A stretch of DNA of 64,000 bases from Geoalkalibacter subterraneus. Lineage in GTDB: Bacteria; Desulfobacterota; Desulfuromonadia; Desulfuromonadales; Geoalkalibacteraceae. A program made the position numbers and the translations under genes. The DNA is taken from assembly GCF_000827125.1 (NCBI RefSeq), contig NZ_CP010311.1, positions 2,749,001 through 2,813,000 of the forward strand, read 5' to 3'. The notes below the pieces were generated by a model. It was not told where the DNA came from. It saw nothing but the letters and a program-made list of their open reading frames with translations, and ran no database searches. Each line of letters begins with the position of its first letter. The stretch's first letter is position 1. This document shows, piece by piece, positions 3,760 to 11,572 of the stretch.

Positions 3760-5184
3760 ATGAATCCAACACAACAGCTTTTGCGGAAACTGCCGGGCAT
3801 AGACAAACTGCTGGACTGCCAGGCGCTGACCGAACTCGGCGAGAGCGTCCCGCATGATGTGCTGACTAAAGCCGCGCGCGAAACGGTGGAGCAACTGCGT
3901 ACCGAGATCCTGGAATCCGCAGAGGATTTTGACGCGACCCGACTGGGCCTGGAACAAGTGGCCGCAGAGGTGGCACAGCTTGTCCAAAACCGCATGAGGC
4001 CGAACCTGCGCCCGGTGATCAACGCCACCGGCACCCTGCTGCACACCAACCTGGGGCGCGCCCCTCTCGCGGAAACAGCCCTGCAGGCCATCACCGAAAC
4101 GGCACGCATGTACTCCAATCTCGAACTCGACCTGGAGAGCGGCAAGCGCGGGCTGCGCCATGACCTGGTCGCCGAACTGCTGTGCCAGCTCACCGGCGCC
4201 GAGGCGGCGATAGCGGTCAACAACAACGCCGGCGCCGTCTATCTGGCGCTGGCCGCCCTGGCCCAGGGTAGAGAAGGGATCGTCTCGCGCGGCGAGCTGG
4301 TGGAGATCGGCGGCGCCTTCCGCATCCCCGATGTCATGGCCGCAAGCGGCGTACGGCTGGTGGAAGTCGGCACCACCAACAAAACTCATCCCCGCGATTA
4401 CCTCAACGCCATCACCGAAGAAACGGGGCTGTTTCTCAAGGTCCACACCAGCAATTTCCGTGTCGTCGGGTTTACCTCGCAGGTCAGCGGTGCCGAACTG
4501 GTGGAAATCGCCAGACCACACGGCATCGCCGTGATGGAGGATCTGGGCAGCGGCATGCTGTTCGATCTCAGCGAATATGGCCTGCCCCGCGAGCCGACGG
4601 TGGCCGAGGCGGTGGCAGCAGGGATCGACGTCGTCACCTTCAGCGGCGACAAGCTGCTGGGCGGACCCCAGGCGGGCATCATCGTCGGGCGACGGGAGCT
4701 GATCGAAAAAATCCGCTCCCACCCCATGGCCCGCGCCCTGCGCATGGACAAGCTGACCCTCGCCTCGCTGGAAGCCACGCTGCGCCTCTACCTCGACCGC
4801 GAACGCGCCCTGCGCGAGATTCCAGTCCTGCGCATGCTGGCCACCCCCGCTGAAGAACTGGAACAGCGCTGCATCAAGCTGGCGCGCCGGGCGACGGAAG
4901 AAATCGACAGCCGCGCACAAATCGAGGTGGTTGCCGCGCCTTCCACCGTGGGCGGCGGAGCGCTGCCCACCACGGAACTGCCCGGCTTCGCCATGGCCGT
5001 CACCCCCAGAGAACAGTCCGTCGACGCGCTTGCGCGCCGCCTGCGCCATGGACAGCCTGCCGTAGTCGCCCGCGTGCAGGATGATCGCCTGCTGTTCAAT
5101 GTGCGCACCCTGGCGAGCGACCAGGAAAACGATCTTCTCACCGCATTGCAAACCGCTTTGGATAGAAACCATGAGCAAGACTGA
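3760..5184 (+). CDS. selA: L-seryl-tRNA(Sec) selenium transferase
   Basis: SelA is the PLP enzyme that converts seryl-tRNA(Sec) to selenocysteinyl-tRNA(Sec) using selenophosphate. The 474-residue length is close to that of known bacterial SelA. The N-terminal helical tRNA-binding part (LLRKLPGIDKLL) leads into the fold-type I domain with INATGTLLHTNLGRAPL. The PLP lysine sits in SGDKLLGGPQAG (Lys298 by codon count). A short AAAGG lies about 10 bases before the ATG. The gene overlaps selB by 14 bases, and selD follows, so the three core selenium genes are expressed in order. This gives the cell the machinery needed for the two in-frame UGA codons further downstream. Confidence 0.97.
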   Translation: MNPTQQLLRKLPGIDKLLDCQALTELGESVPHDVLTKAARETVEQLRTEILESAEDFDATRLGLEQVAAEVAQLVQNRMRPNLRPVINATGTLLHTNLGRAPLAETALQAITETARMYSNLELDLESGKRGLRHDLVAELLCQLTGAEAAIAVNNNAGAVYLALAALAQGREGIVSRGELVEIGGAFRIPDVMAASGVRLVEVGTTNKTHPRDYLNAITEETGLFLKVHTSNFRVVGFTSQVSGAELVEIARPHGIAVMEDLGSGMLFDLSEYGLPREPTVAEAVAAGIDVVTFSGDKLLGGPQAGIIVGRRELIEKIRSHPMARALRMDKLTLASLEATLRLYLDRERALREIPVLRMLATPAEELEQRCIKLARRATEEIDSRAQIEVVAAPSTVGGGALPTTELPGFAMAVTPREQSVDALARRLRHGQPAVVARVQDDRLLFNVRTLASDQENDLLTALQTALDRNHEQD

Positions 5185-7087
5185 ACACCACGTCATCATC
5201 GGCACCGCCGGCCACGTCGACCACGGCAAAACCGCCCTGATCGGCGCATTGACCGGTGTCGAAACGGACCGTTTAACGGAAGAGAAAAAACGCGGCATCT
5301 CCATCGATCTGGGTTTTGCCCCCTTTCGCCTGCCCGGCGGCATGATCGCCGGCGTGGTCGACGTGCCGGGTCACGAGAAGTTCATCAGCAACATGCTGAC
5401 CGGCATCGGCGGCATCGACCTGGTGCTGCTGGTCGTCGACGTCAACGAAGGGGTCATGCCGCAGACCCGCGAGCATCTGCAGATTCTCGACCTGCTGCAG
5501 ATCCCCCAGGGGATCATCGTGTTGACCAAGTGCGATCTGGCGGAAGAGGACTGGATCGACATCGTCGAGGAAGAGGTCCGCGAAGAAGTGTCCGGCACCT
5601 TCCTGGAAAAGGCACCGGTGGCGCGCGTCTCTGCCATCACCGGAGACGGGCTCGATGGTCTTGCCTCCTTGATCGAGACCAAGGCGCGAACCCTGCCGAT
5701 CAAGGATGCCGACGGCCCCATGCGCCTGCCTATTGACCGCCACTTTACCCTGTCCGGATTCGGCACCGTCATTACCGGCACCCTTCTGTCGGGACGGGTC
5801 CGCGCCGGGGACATGGTGGAGGTACTGCCCCCTGGAGACACGGTGCGTGTGCGCGAAGTGCAGGTGCACGGCAAGCAGGTGGAAGAAGCCAGCGCCGGGC
5901 AGCGCGTCGCCCTCAACCTCGCGGGGCTTGATCGCGAACGCATCCGCCGCGGCGCAGTGGTCGGCACCCCGAAGGTATTTGAACAAACCACCTGCATCGA
6001 CGCCCGCCTGACCCTGCTGGCCGACGCGCCGCGCCCCCTCAAATTCCGCGACCCGGTTCATCTCTATCTGGGCACTGCGCGGGTGGTGGGGCTGGTGGCG
6101 TTGCTCGATCGCGACCTGATGGAACCGGGAGAAAGTGCCATTGTCCAGATTCACCTTGACCGTCCCCTGGTCGCCCACCGCGAGGACCGTTTCATCGTGC
6201 GCTCCTACAGCCCCATGACTACCATCGGCGGCGGTCGGGTGCTCGATCCGCGTCCGGTCAAGCATCGTCGTTTCCGCACGGAGATCATGGAGGCGCTCAA
6301 GGATCTGGAAAGCGGTGAAAAATCCTTCCTGCTGCAGAAGCTCAGCGATCAGCAGTCCACCACGGTGAAAAATCTCGAACTGCTCTCCGGGCTCGGCCGT
6401 GAGCGAGTCGAGAAAAACCTGCGTCAACTGGAGGAAGAAGGCCTCGCCTGGCAGCTTGTCGACCAGTGGGCCGCCAGTGACGCCCTGGCGTCCTGGCGCC
6501 ACCGTCTGCGCGACGCCACCACCCGTTTTCACAGCGAAAATCCCTTGCAGCCAGGCATCCCCCATGCCACCCTGAAGGGCGCGCTGCCGGACAAGGTTTC
6601 ATCAAAGGCATTTCAGAAGCTGCTCACCATGATTATCGACGACGGCCAGCTGGTGCGAAAAGGGGAATGGATTGCCCTGTCGGACTGGACACCCCAGCCG
6701 ACCCGGCAGCAGGCGGAAGATCTGGAGAAGATCGAAGCGGCCTATCAGCGCGGGGGAGCTCTGGTCAAAAACCGCAACGAGATGATCGAGCGCCTGAATC
6801 TCACTCCTGAACAGGCCGACACCTACTTCACCTTCCTGTTCGCTGAAGGGCGCCTGGTCAAGCTCACTGAAGAGACCTATCTGCACGCCGAGACCTATCA
6901 AAATGCGGTGCAGCTCCTCAGGGATCACTTCGCACAGAACGAGACCCTGACCCTGGCCCAGTTCCGCGACCTGTTCGGCAGCGCCCGCAAACAGGTGCAG
7001 GCCCTGCTGGAACATTTCGACAGCCTCAAATACACCCGCCGCGTCGGAGATGAGCGGGTTGCGTGGAAACTGCCGGAGAAAGACTGA
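5171..7087 (+). CDS. selB: Selenocysteine-specific elongation factor SelB
   Basis: SelB brings Sec-tRNA to UGA codons and recognises the mRNA SECIS hairpin. The G domain is plain: [10 protein letters not shown] (G1), DVPGHEKF (G3) and TKCD (G4). It is followed by EF-Tu-like beta-barrel domains and a C-terminal half of winged-helix repeats (from about residue 375), which in the family bind SECIS RNA. I chose the ATG at 5171, giving 638 residues, because [21 protein letters not shown] is the usual SelB N-terminus. A longer in-frame reading from 5081 would run through the end of selA with no family counterpart. The start lies inside the selA stop region, suggesting translational coupling. Confidence 0.96.
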
Positions 7088-7098
7088 AAAATCGATTT

Positions 7099-7189
7099 CA
7101 ACGCAGAGACGGAGAGCAGGGAGAGAAAAGATCTGAAAAGTCTTTTTCTTTTGTTTCTCTGCGCCTTTGCCTCTCTGCGTCTTTGCGTT
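7099..7189. repeat. Imperfect inverted repeat between selB and selD
   Basis: The left arm at about 7099-7128 (AACGCAGAGACGGAGAG then GGGAGAGAAA) faces a right arm at about 7155-7189 (TTTCTCTGCG, then CTCTCTGCGTCTTTGCGTT). The arms are rich in the alternating words GCAGAGAC and GTCTTTGCG and could fold into a long imperfect hairpin. Similar aacgcagagacgcagag-type intergenic repeats are known to recur in several bacterial phyla. Here it fills almost the whole 136-base gap in front of selD. No other copy was seen in the window. Confidence 0.6.
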
Positions 7190-7223
7190 AAAATTTAGCT
7201 TTTGATTTTTAAAAGGATAAGCA

Positions 7224-8264
7224 ATGACCGAAAAGATCCGCCTGACGAGTCTGTCGCGCACCTCCGGGTGAGCGGCCAAGATCGGGCCTGAGACCCTGGC
7301 GCAGGTTCTGCGTCAACTTCCCATATCCGCCGACCCCAACCTGCTGTCGGCCGCGATTCCCTTCGCCGATGCGGGCATCTACCGTATCTCGGACGACCTC
7401 GCACTGGTGCAGTCGATCGACTTCTTCACTCCAGTGGTGGATGATCCCTACCTGTTCGGCCAGATTGCCGCGGCCAACGCCCTCTCCGACGTGTTCGCCA
7501 TGGGGGCGCGCCCCATCACGGCACTCAACCTGATCGGGTTCCCCCTGTGCACGCTGGGCGTCGACGATCTGACCGCCATTCTGATCGGCGGTGCCGACAA
7601 GGTGGCGGAGGCGGGCGCCGTGATTGCGGGAGGGCATTCGGTCGAGGACGATGAGCCCAAATACGGCCTTGCTGTCACCGGGCTGGTGGATCCCGCCGCG
7701 ATGATCACTACCGTCGGCGCACGCCCCGGTGACCGCCTGATTCTGACCAAACCGCTGGGGACCGGCCTGCTGGCAACCGCCCTCAAGGGGGAAGTGCTCA
7801 CCGAATCCGACCTGTCCGAGGCTATAAGCGGCATGGCGACCCTCAACAAGCGCGCCGCTGAAGTCATGCTGGAAACAGGCGTCCACGCCTGCACCGACAT
7901 CACCGGTTTCGGCCTGCTCGGCCACGCTCTCGAGCTGGCTGCGGCCAGCAATGTCCGCATCGTTCTCGACGGCAAAAGCCTGCCCGCCTACCCCCAGGCC
8001 CTCGAAATGGCGTCCATGGGGCTGGTACCCGAAGGCAGTTATCGCAACCGCTCCCACTATCTGCCCCGCGTCCAGGACCCGGAGCGCATCCCCGCAGCCA
8101 CCCTCGACCTGCTGGCCGACCCACAGACTTCCGGCGGCCTGCTGATGGTCGTCGCACCCGACAAGTGCGACCGGCTCCGGGAAAAACTTTCCGCTGCGGG
8201 CTGCGGCGCCTGGCTGATCGGCCACATCGAAGAAGGCCCGGCAGGACAAATGCGGGTCTATTAA
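7224..8264 (+). CDS. selD: Selenide, water dikinase, itself a selenoprotein (Sec at codon 16)
   Basis: SelD makes selenophosphate from selenide and ATP, the selenium donor for SelA. The ATG at 7224 follows an AAAAGGA Shine-Dalgarno. The frame reads MTEKIRLTSLSRTSG, then UGA (7269-7271, codon 16), then AAKIGPETLAQVL, and continues open to a stop at 8262-8264, giving 346 residues. The UGA falls exactly where SelD carries its catalytic Cys or Sec, just before the conserved Ala-Lys-Ile. Downstream the frame has the expected AIR-synthase-like motifs, for example VQSIDFFTPVVDDP and DITGFGLLGHALE. Read with a standard code the gene would be miscalled as a 285-residue protein from 7407. A bSECIS-like hairpin follows the UGA, supporting decoding as selenocysteine. 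Confidence 0.96.
7297..7315 (+). promoter_or_regulatory. Putative bSECIS hairpin for the selD UGA
   Basis: Eight base pairs (TGGCGCAG against CTGCGTCA, one of them G-U) close a three-base loop GTT beginning 34 bases after the start of the UGA... that is, about 33 bases past its last base. Bacterial SECIS elements have a short stem with a G-U containing apical loop within roughly 15-40 bases of the UGA, which this satisfies. It is coding sequence at the same time. Confidence 0.6.
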
Positions 8265-8563: not shown

Positions 8564-11500
8564 ATGGGAATTTCTCGTCGAAACTTCCTCAAGGGCACCG
8601 GCCTCGCCGCCGGCACGGTCGCACTGACCGGCGCCCAGGCGCAGGCAGGCGCGGACGCGCCCGAAATGCGCACCAAGGGACTTAAAACCACCACCACCGT
8701 CTGCCCCTACTGTGCCGTGGGCTGCGGGATGATTGTCCACACCAAGGATGGACGCATCGTCAACATCGAGGGCGATCCTGAACATCCCATCAATCGCGGC
8801 TCGCTCTGCTCCAAGGGCAGCGCCATGTTCCAGGTCGCCAACAACGAACGGCGCCTGACCACCGTCAAGTACCGCGCCCCCGGCAGCGACCGCTGGGAGG
8901 AAAAATCCTGGGAGTGGGCGATGGATCGCATTGCGCGGCTGATGAAAGACAGCCGCGACCGGCAGTTCATCAAGACAGAAAAGGTCAACGGCAAAAGCTA
9001 CCAGGTCAACCGCAACGACGGCATGACCTTCCTCGGCGGCGCGGCCCTCGACAATGAAGAATGTTACCTGTGGGGGAAATTCTCGCGCGCCATGGGGGTC
9101 GGCTACCTCGAACACCAGGCGCGAATATGACACAGCGCCACTGTCGCCGGTCTGGCGGCATCATTCGGTCGTGGAGCCATGACCAACCATTGGAACGACA
9201 TTCAGCATGCCGATGTGATTCTCGCGATCGGCTCCAACCCCGCTGAAAACCATCCGATCTCCTTCAAATACGTGGAACGGGCGATGGACCGCGGCGCCAA
9301 GCTGATCTCTGTCGACCCGCGCTACACCCGCACCTCGTCGAAAGCCGATATCTACGCCCAGCTGCGGCCGGGCACCGACATCGCCTTCATCGGCGGATTG
9401 ATCAACCATACCCTTGAGAACGGCCTCTACCATAAAGACTACGTGGTGAACTACACCAACGCCGCCTTTGTCGTCGATGATAGTTTCGACTTCGAGGAAG
9501 GAATATTCTCCGGCTACAACAGCGACAGCTTCAGCTACGACAAAACCAGCTGGAGTTACAAAACCGGGGCAGACGGCAAACCGCTGCGCGACGACACGCT
9601 TGAGAACCCGCGCTGCGTTTTTCAGTTGATGAAGAAACATTACAGCCGCTACTCTCCGCAGGCTGTGTGTGAGATCACCGGCACCAGTATTCAGGATTAC
9701 ATGGCGGTCGCCCGTGCTTTCTGCGGGACCGGCACCACCGACAAGGTGGCGACCATCATGTACGCCATGGGAACCACCCAGCATACCTACGGCACGCAGA
9801 ACGTGCGCTCCTACGCCATGCTGCAGCTGCTGCTCGGCAACGTCGGCCGCGCCGGCGGCGGCATCAACGCGCTGCGCGGCGAGTGCAACGTGCAGGGTTC
9901 CACCGACTACGCCCTGCTCTATCACATCCTGCCGGGCTACCTCAAGGCACCTGAATATCATGACACCGACCTGAAAAACTACCTCGAGAAAGCCACGCCG
10001 CGCACCACCGACGAACAGAGCGCCAACTGGTGGAGCAACTATCCCAAGTACATGGTCAGCCTGCTCAAGGCCTATTACGGCGACCATGCGGTGAAAGACA
10101 ATGATTTCTGCTTCAACTACCTGCCCAAGCGCAGCGGCAACTACTCCTACATCCAGGTGATGGAGCGGCTGCAGGCAGGCGGCTTCGACGGCATGTTCTG
10201 CCTGGGCACCAACCCGATAGTGGGCGGGCCCGACGCCAACGGCATCTCCCGCGGCATGGACAAGCTCAAGTGGCTGGTTGCTGCCGACCTGTGGGAAACC
10301 GAATCGTCCATCTTCTGGAAACGTCCCGGCGTCGACCCGAAGGAGATCAAGACCGAGGTCTTTCTGCTGCCGGCCGCATCGAGCGTGGAGAAGCAGGGCA
10401 GCGTCTCCAACTCCGGACGCTGGGCTCAATGGCGCTACAAAGCCGCCAACCCTCCGGGGCAGGCGGAAAGCGACGCGTTCATCATCGACCAGATGTTCCG
10501 ACGCATCCAGGCCCTTTACAAAAAAGAGGGCGGGGCTTTCCCCGACCCCATCGTCAATCTGTCCTGGGAGTACGGCGACGGCCACGAACCGGATATCGAC
10601 CTGGTGGCCCGCGAGTGCAACGGCCGCTTTACCCGCGACGTGCAGATCGGCGGCAAAACCTACCGCAAGGGGCAGCAGGTTCCGAGTTTCGCACTGTTGC
10701 AGGATGACGGTTCCACCACCAGCGGCAACTGGCTTTACTGCGCCTCCTACACCGAGGAGGGCAACATGATGCAGCGCCGCGGTCAGGAAGATCCCACCGG
10801 TATGGAGATGTACCACAACTGGGCCTGGTGCTGGCCGGTCAACCGCCGCGTGCTTTACAACCGTGCCTCCGTCGACCCCGACGGTCGTCCCTGGGATTCC
10901 AAACGCCCGGTGATCAAATGGGATGCCGTCAGCGGCAAATGGCAGGGCGATGTCCCCGACGGCGGTTGGCCGCCCATGAATCAACCCGGCGGACGCAAAC
11001 CCTTCATCATGGTTGCGGAAGGATTGGGACGTCTTTATGCCGCCGGGCTGGCCGACGGTCCGTTCCCGGAACATTACGAGCCGATGGAAAGTCCGGTCGC
11101 CAACCTGATGAGTCGTCAGCAGTGCAATCCTGCGGTGGCAACCCCCGGCAACATCAGCAACTCCGGCAAATTCCCCTATATCGGAACCAGCTACCGGGTC
11201 TCCGAACACTGGCAGGCAGGCGCGATGACCCGCAACCTGCCCTGGCTGGTGGAGTTGGTGCCCGATATGTTCATCGAAATGAGCGAACAGCTGGCGGCTT
11301 GGAAGGGAATCGAAAACGGCGACTGGGTCAGGGTCTCCTCCGAACGGGGCAGCATCCGGGCACGCGCCCTGGTCACTTCCCGCATCAAACCCCTACGTAT
11401 CGGGGGCAAGCTGGTGGAACAGGTGGGGCTGCCCTGGCATTTCGGCTTTGCCGGTCTGGCCAAAGGCGATACCGCCAATGCCCTGACCACGGCGGTCGGC

Positions 11501-11572
11501 TGCGCCAACACCACCATACCCGAATACAAAGCGTTTTTGTGCAACATCGAAAAAGGGGGTAAAAGCGCATGA
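8564..11572 (+). CDS. fdhG: Formate dehydrogenase catalytic subunit, selenocysteine-containing, Tat-exported
   Basis: This is the molybdenum/tungsten bis-MGD subunit that oxidises formate. The N-terminus MGISRRNFLKG is a Tat signal, so the enzyme faces the periplasm. A [4Fe-4S] cluster is bound by CPYCAVGCGM and SLCSKG. The frame meets UGA at 9128-9130 (codon 189) in the context HQARI-Sec-HSATVAGLAASFGRGAMTNHW, which is the invariant Sec site of FdnG/FdhF-type enzymes. Translation continues to 11572, giving 1002 residues with Sec, close to E. coli FdnG (about 1015). Standard-code calling would split it into a 188-residue piece and a 797-residue piece starting at 9179. Its stop overlaps the start of the beta subunit (ATGA). 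Confidence 0.97.
9142..9160 (+). promoter_or_regulatory. bSECIS hairpin for the fdhG UGA
   Basis: Seven base pairs (TGTCGCC against GGCGGCA, with one U-G) close the five-base loop GGTCT, which starts 19 bases after the UGA. The loop matches the GGUCU apical loop known from the E. coli formate dehydrogenase SECIS elements recognised by SelB. Confidence 0.8.

Follow-up and report, generated by a model that had tools for sequence, protein, structure and literature searches.

The window, i.e. the whole stretch of DNA analysed here, comprises 64,000 nt of Geoalkalibacter subterraneus (NZ_CP010311.1, positions 2,749,001-2,813,000, forward strand). On its plus strand selA, selB and selD lie in a row and are followed by the gene of a formate dehydrogenase alpha subunit. 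The selenocysteine synthase gene selA occupies 3760-5184 (TIGR00474, 611 bits) and selB, which codes for the selenocysteine-specific elongation factor with its C-terminal winged helices (SelB-wing_2, wing_3), occupies 5171-7087 (TIGR00475, 404 bits). The formate dehydrogenase-N alpha subunit (8564-11572) contains an in-frame UGA at 9128-9130 with a hairpin past it, and its read-through frame scores 1336 bits with TIGR01553; as a second selenoprotein it draws on the same Sec machinery. Standard gene calling breaks this gene into 8564-9130 and 9179-11572. The genome has a tRNA-Sec gene (anticodon TCA) at position 2745074, which is 3.9 kb upstream of the window; selA, selB and selC, which were looked for in the host, are all present, and the genome also codes for the selenouridine synthase SelU. 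The search for further selenoproteins in the window by read-through extensions yielded mostly wrong-frame noise in this GC-rich DNA.

The spacer between selB and selD (7088-7205) can fold into a long, imperfectly paired hairpin (-43.6 kcal/mol, z -3.9). Its arm CTCTGCGTCTTTGCGTT is part of a repeat scattered over the genome, with 21 sites at no more than two mismatches vs. 1 for the reversed control.

The full-length selD frame

The selD gene extends from the ATG at 7224 to the stop codon ending at 8264 on the plus strand and codes for a Sec-containing selenophosphate synthetase of 346 residues. In the read-through translation the frame has no stop other than the UGA of codon 16 (7269-7271), and it reads MTEKIRLTSLSRTSG-UGA-AAKIGPETL..., continuous with the main SelD ORF, as the first-pass annotation had claimed. 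A Shine-Dalgarno-like AAAAGGA (7211-7217), recognised by direct reading of the sequence, precedes the ATG by 6 nt. Under the standard code, ORF calling gives a shortened frame of 285 amino acids (7407-8264, plus strand), which begins with a GTG 61 codons later and lacks residues 1-61 together with the active site. This loss had also been predicted, and the observations of the first-pass annotation are confirmed in every detail.

The catalytic position and its conservation

In the profile search the read-through SelD scored 377 bits with the TIGR00476 selD family (cut-off 125), which places it in the family. It could be aligned to the solved structures 2yye/2zod and 3u0o; 2yye is the Aquifex enzyme and 3u0o that of E. 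coli. In this alignment with Cys-type SelD proteins the UGA stands opposite the catalytic Cys, in the SGCAAK / AGCGCK loop, a Lys follows three residues on, and the earlier claim that it takes the place of the catalytic Cys/Sec is borne out. The Cys-type E. coli SelD (PDB 3u0o) shares the fold family and the flanking residues G-C/U-x-x-K with the G. subterraneus protein and differs from it in having an active-site Cys in place of Sec. A TGT codon is found at the same position in one relative (L043). The catalytic motif of SelD is given as UxxK (PMC13188914). The N-terminal loop here reads G-U16-A-A-K19, in which U, A17 and K19 are invariant in 90 relatives.

Of the 136 genomes from this order, 129 gave a match to the SelD query, and nearly all near-full-length matches contained exactly one TGA. 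The UGA at codon 16 was kept in 90 of the 90 relatives of the same subtype tested. Since the UGA coincides with the catalytic Cys in the solved structures and these 90 relatives retain it, it is not there by chance. According to the first-pass annotation, relatives sharing the UGA but not the codons ahead of it would speak against its reading; these codons turned out to be conserved, L7 and G15 being invariant in the 90 sequences, as are U16, A17, K19 and P22, while T8 is kept in 93% and L10 in 97% of them. An ATG is found 11-17 codons upstream of the UGA in nearly all of the 90.

Other SelD types occur in the order as well. Some genomes carry a second Sec-SelD type, approx. 50% identical (L051 in G098, L052 in G124, L053/L054 in G091), and among the members with this type two SelD genes are sometimes found in one genome; L052-L054 and L115 have an 8-bp hairpin of their own, the loop of which lies only about 21 nt past the UGA. 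L046-L050 (G115, G111, G109, G116 and G110, respectively) represent a Cys-type SelD that is extended at its N-terminus and has a GGCSAK motif; G115 and G109 have a Sec-SelD in addition. By eye, L046 is flanked by an apparent NifS-like aminotransferase upstream and an apparent TusA/FdhD-like ORF downstream.

The bSECIS hairpin

The hairpin of eight pairs with a GTT loop that had been proposed about 25-45 bases downstream was located 26-44 nt after the UGA (7297-7315, plus strand; stem 7297-7304/7308-7315, loop 7305-7307). The bSECIS model requires an apical loop of 3-9 nt with a G in its first two positions, a stem of 4-16 bp, a spacing of 16-37 nt and a minimum free energy of at most -7.5 kcal/mol (PMC13188914). 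With its GTT loop, 8 bp, a UGA-to-loop distance of 33 nt and -11.2 kcal/mol, the selD hairpin agrees with the model in every respect. The Rfam scan of the window gave no match at the gathering score, as would be expected if Rfam has no general bSECIS model.

In the single sequence the folding energy is unremarkable, which weighs against the Sec reading: z is -1.76, 13 of 200 shuffled sequences fold equally well, and 14% of synonymous recodings are as stable. Energy alone was for this reason rejected as evidence for the hairpin. Only the comparison across relatives makes the hairpin compelling, not its energy in the one sequence.

A relative that lost Sec decoding

In the relative G131 the SelD gene has TGT (Cys) where the others have UGA, and one of the eight hairpin pairs is lost. 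Its genome is about 100% complete. It contains no strong tRNA-Sec (best match 47.8 bits vs. 74.6 in G129 and G130). SelB is not present in full length either, its 171-bit match being below the cut-off and aligned in the GTPase part only; the selenouridine synthase is retained. The UGA, tRNA-Sec and SelB are all present in G129 and G130, which belong to the same genus. A reversion of Sec to Cys has been described for SelD in general (PMC1794560), and on that description the Cys16 of G131 is an instance of it.

These data bear on the possibility that the UGA is read by some mechanism other than Sec insertion, e.g. by incorporation of Trp, Cys or a near-cognate residue, as has been proposed for the insect SPS1-UGA genes (PMC4561486). 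Against such a mechanism stand the hairpin that fits the bSECIS model and the presence of SelA, SelB and tRNA-Sec in G. subterraneus, as well as the coincidence in G131 of the change from UGA to Cys with the loss of Sec decoding. We regard non-Sec readthrough as highly improbable and read codon 16 as selenocysteine.

Probable co-evolution of the hairpin and residue 30

The hairpin was compared in 87 distinct sequences of relatives. All eight pairs can form in 76 of them and seven in the other 11, the one broken pair in the latter weighing against the reading as a Sec-SelD hairpin. One could suppose that the hairpin is conserved through protein constraint only, since codons 25, 28 and 29 encode invariant residues. 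When the proteins were kept fixed and synonymous codons were redrawn from the codon usage of SelD, however, the stems had 5.6 pairs on average and 3.9% of them were complete, while the observed values are 7.9 pairs and 87%. Moreover, the third base of codon 26 tracks the first base of codon 30 irrespective of the amino acid at position 30. Protein constraint as the sole cause is hardly conceivable in view of these results.

The two bases last mentioned form the pair 7301-7311. In the 87 sequences this pair is G-C in 39, T-A in 18, C-G in 14, A-T in 11 and G-T in 1, and an unpaired C-A is found in 4; residue 30 shifts accordingly between Arg, Ser, Gly or Asp, and Cys. In a tree calculated from DNA beyond the hairpin, at least 16 switches between pair types are needed; the tree being short and of weak support, this number is approximate. 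An independent-pair test on the 234-column tree gave too few supported pairs to reach significance, but none of them speaks against pairing at 7301-7311. The broken C-A was observed at the equivalent position in L070, L080, L095 and L099, all of one clade.

It is likely that SelD and its SECIS hairpin evolve in concert, the first base in the codon of the freely varying residue 30 staying paired to the third base of codon 26 in four Watson-Crick forms. Given this four-way pairing, base pairing of the RNA within the coding region would limit or steer amino acid replacement in SelD, an enzyme that produces the selenium donor for its own synthesis. A coupling of this kind is expected for any RNA element in coding DNA and is here unusually clear; so tight a coupling with residue 30 is not stated in those parts of the Sec-SelD literature that were surveyed.

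Discussion

In the selenophosphate synthetase encoded by selD of G. subterraneus the catalytic residue 16 is almost certainly selenocysteine, presumably inserted by SelB with the help of the hairpin. That translation begins at the GTG of 7407, the upstream frame being untranslated or a decayed 5' end, is the outcome of mechanical ORF finding and can practically be dismissed, as such a start would drop the active-site Sec/Cys, Lys19, the A48-D49 pair that is invariant among the relatives and many other invariant residues, and 90 relatives retain the UGA.

For the full-length selenoprotein the following mechanism can be proposed. SelB would bind the hairpin 33 nt downstream and bring Sec-tRNA-Sec to the UGA. 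Sec16 and Lys19 would then act in the formation of selenophosphate from selenide and ATP, and the selenophosphate would be passed on to SelA, providing Sec for SelD itself and for the formate dehydrogenase, and to the selenouridine synthase SelU.

Only one SelD was found above the family cut-off in the G. subterraneus genome. A second, Cys-type SelD was not detected there; three other matches fall well short of the cut-off and seem to be different proteins of the AIR-synthase superfamily. Because it is the only SelD of the genome, the protein is needed for the selenocysteine that it contains, and the self-dependent loop put forward by the first-pass annotation is real in this organism. Those of its proposed checks that lend themselves to computation all turned out favourably, and its interpretation is supported. 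Presumably SelD protein inherited by the cell, or another residue occasionally incorporated at the UGA, allows the loop to start.

In the order to which G. subterraneus belongs SelD usually contains Sec, and this form has been in the literature since 2006 at the latest, a point that the first-pass annotation does not mention; the finding is correct and ordinary. A table of selenoproteins from that year lists SelD for Geobacter sulfurreducens, G. metallireducens and Desulfuromonas acetoxidans, and FdhA and SelD were named as the most widespread bacterial selenoproteins (Zhang et al., PMC1794560). The family, the catalytic Sec and the machinery are the same in those proteins, and no meaningful difference was found. 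SPS is often itself a selenoprotein; Sec occurs in 19% of prokaryotic SelD proteins, always at this position, and bSECIS elements were detected in the Sec forms (Mariotti et al. 2015, PMC4561486). The G. subterraneus protein does not differ from this Sec-SelD/SPS2 family, having Sec at the same position and the bSECIS directly downstream in the coding region.

The Sec-SelD described here raises no new question of mechanism. The gene model is corrected, by which SelD regains 61 residues and its active site, and the genome is confirmed to carry a complete Sec-decoding set in which the only SelD depends on itself. With G131 as a clean case of natural loss and with its four-way compensatory pair, this selD is well suited as a benchmark for predicting bSECIS elements.
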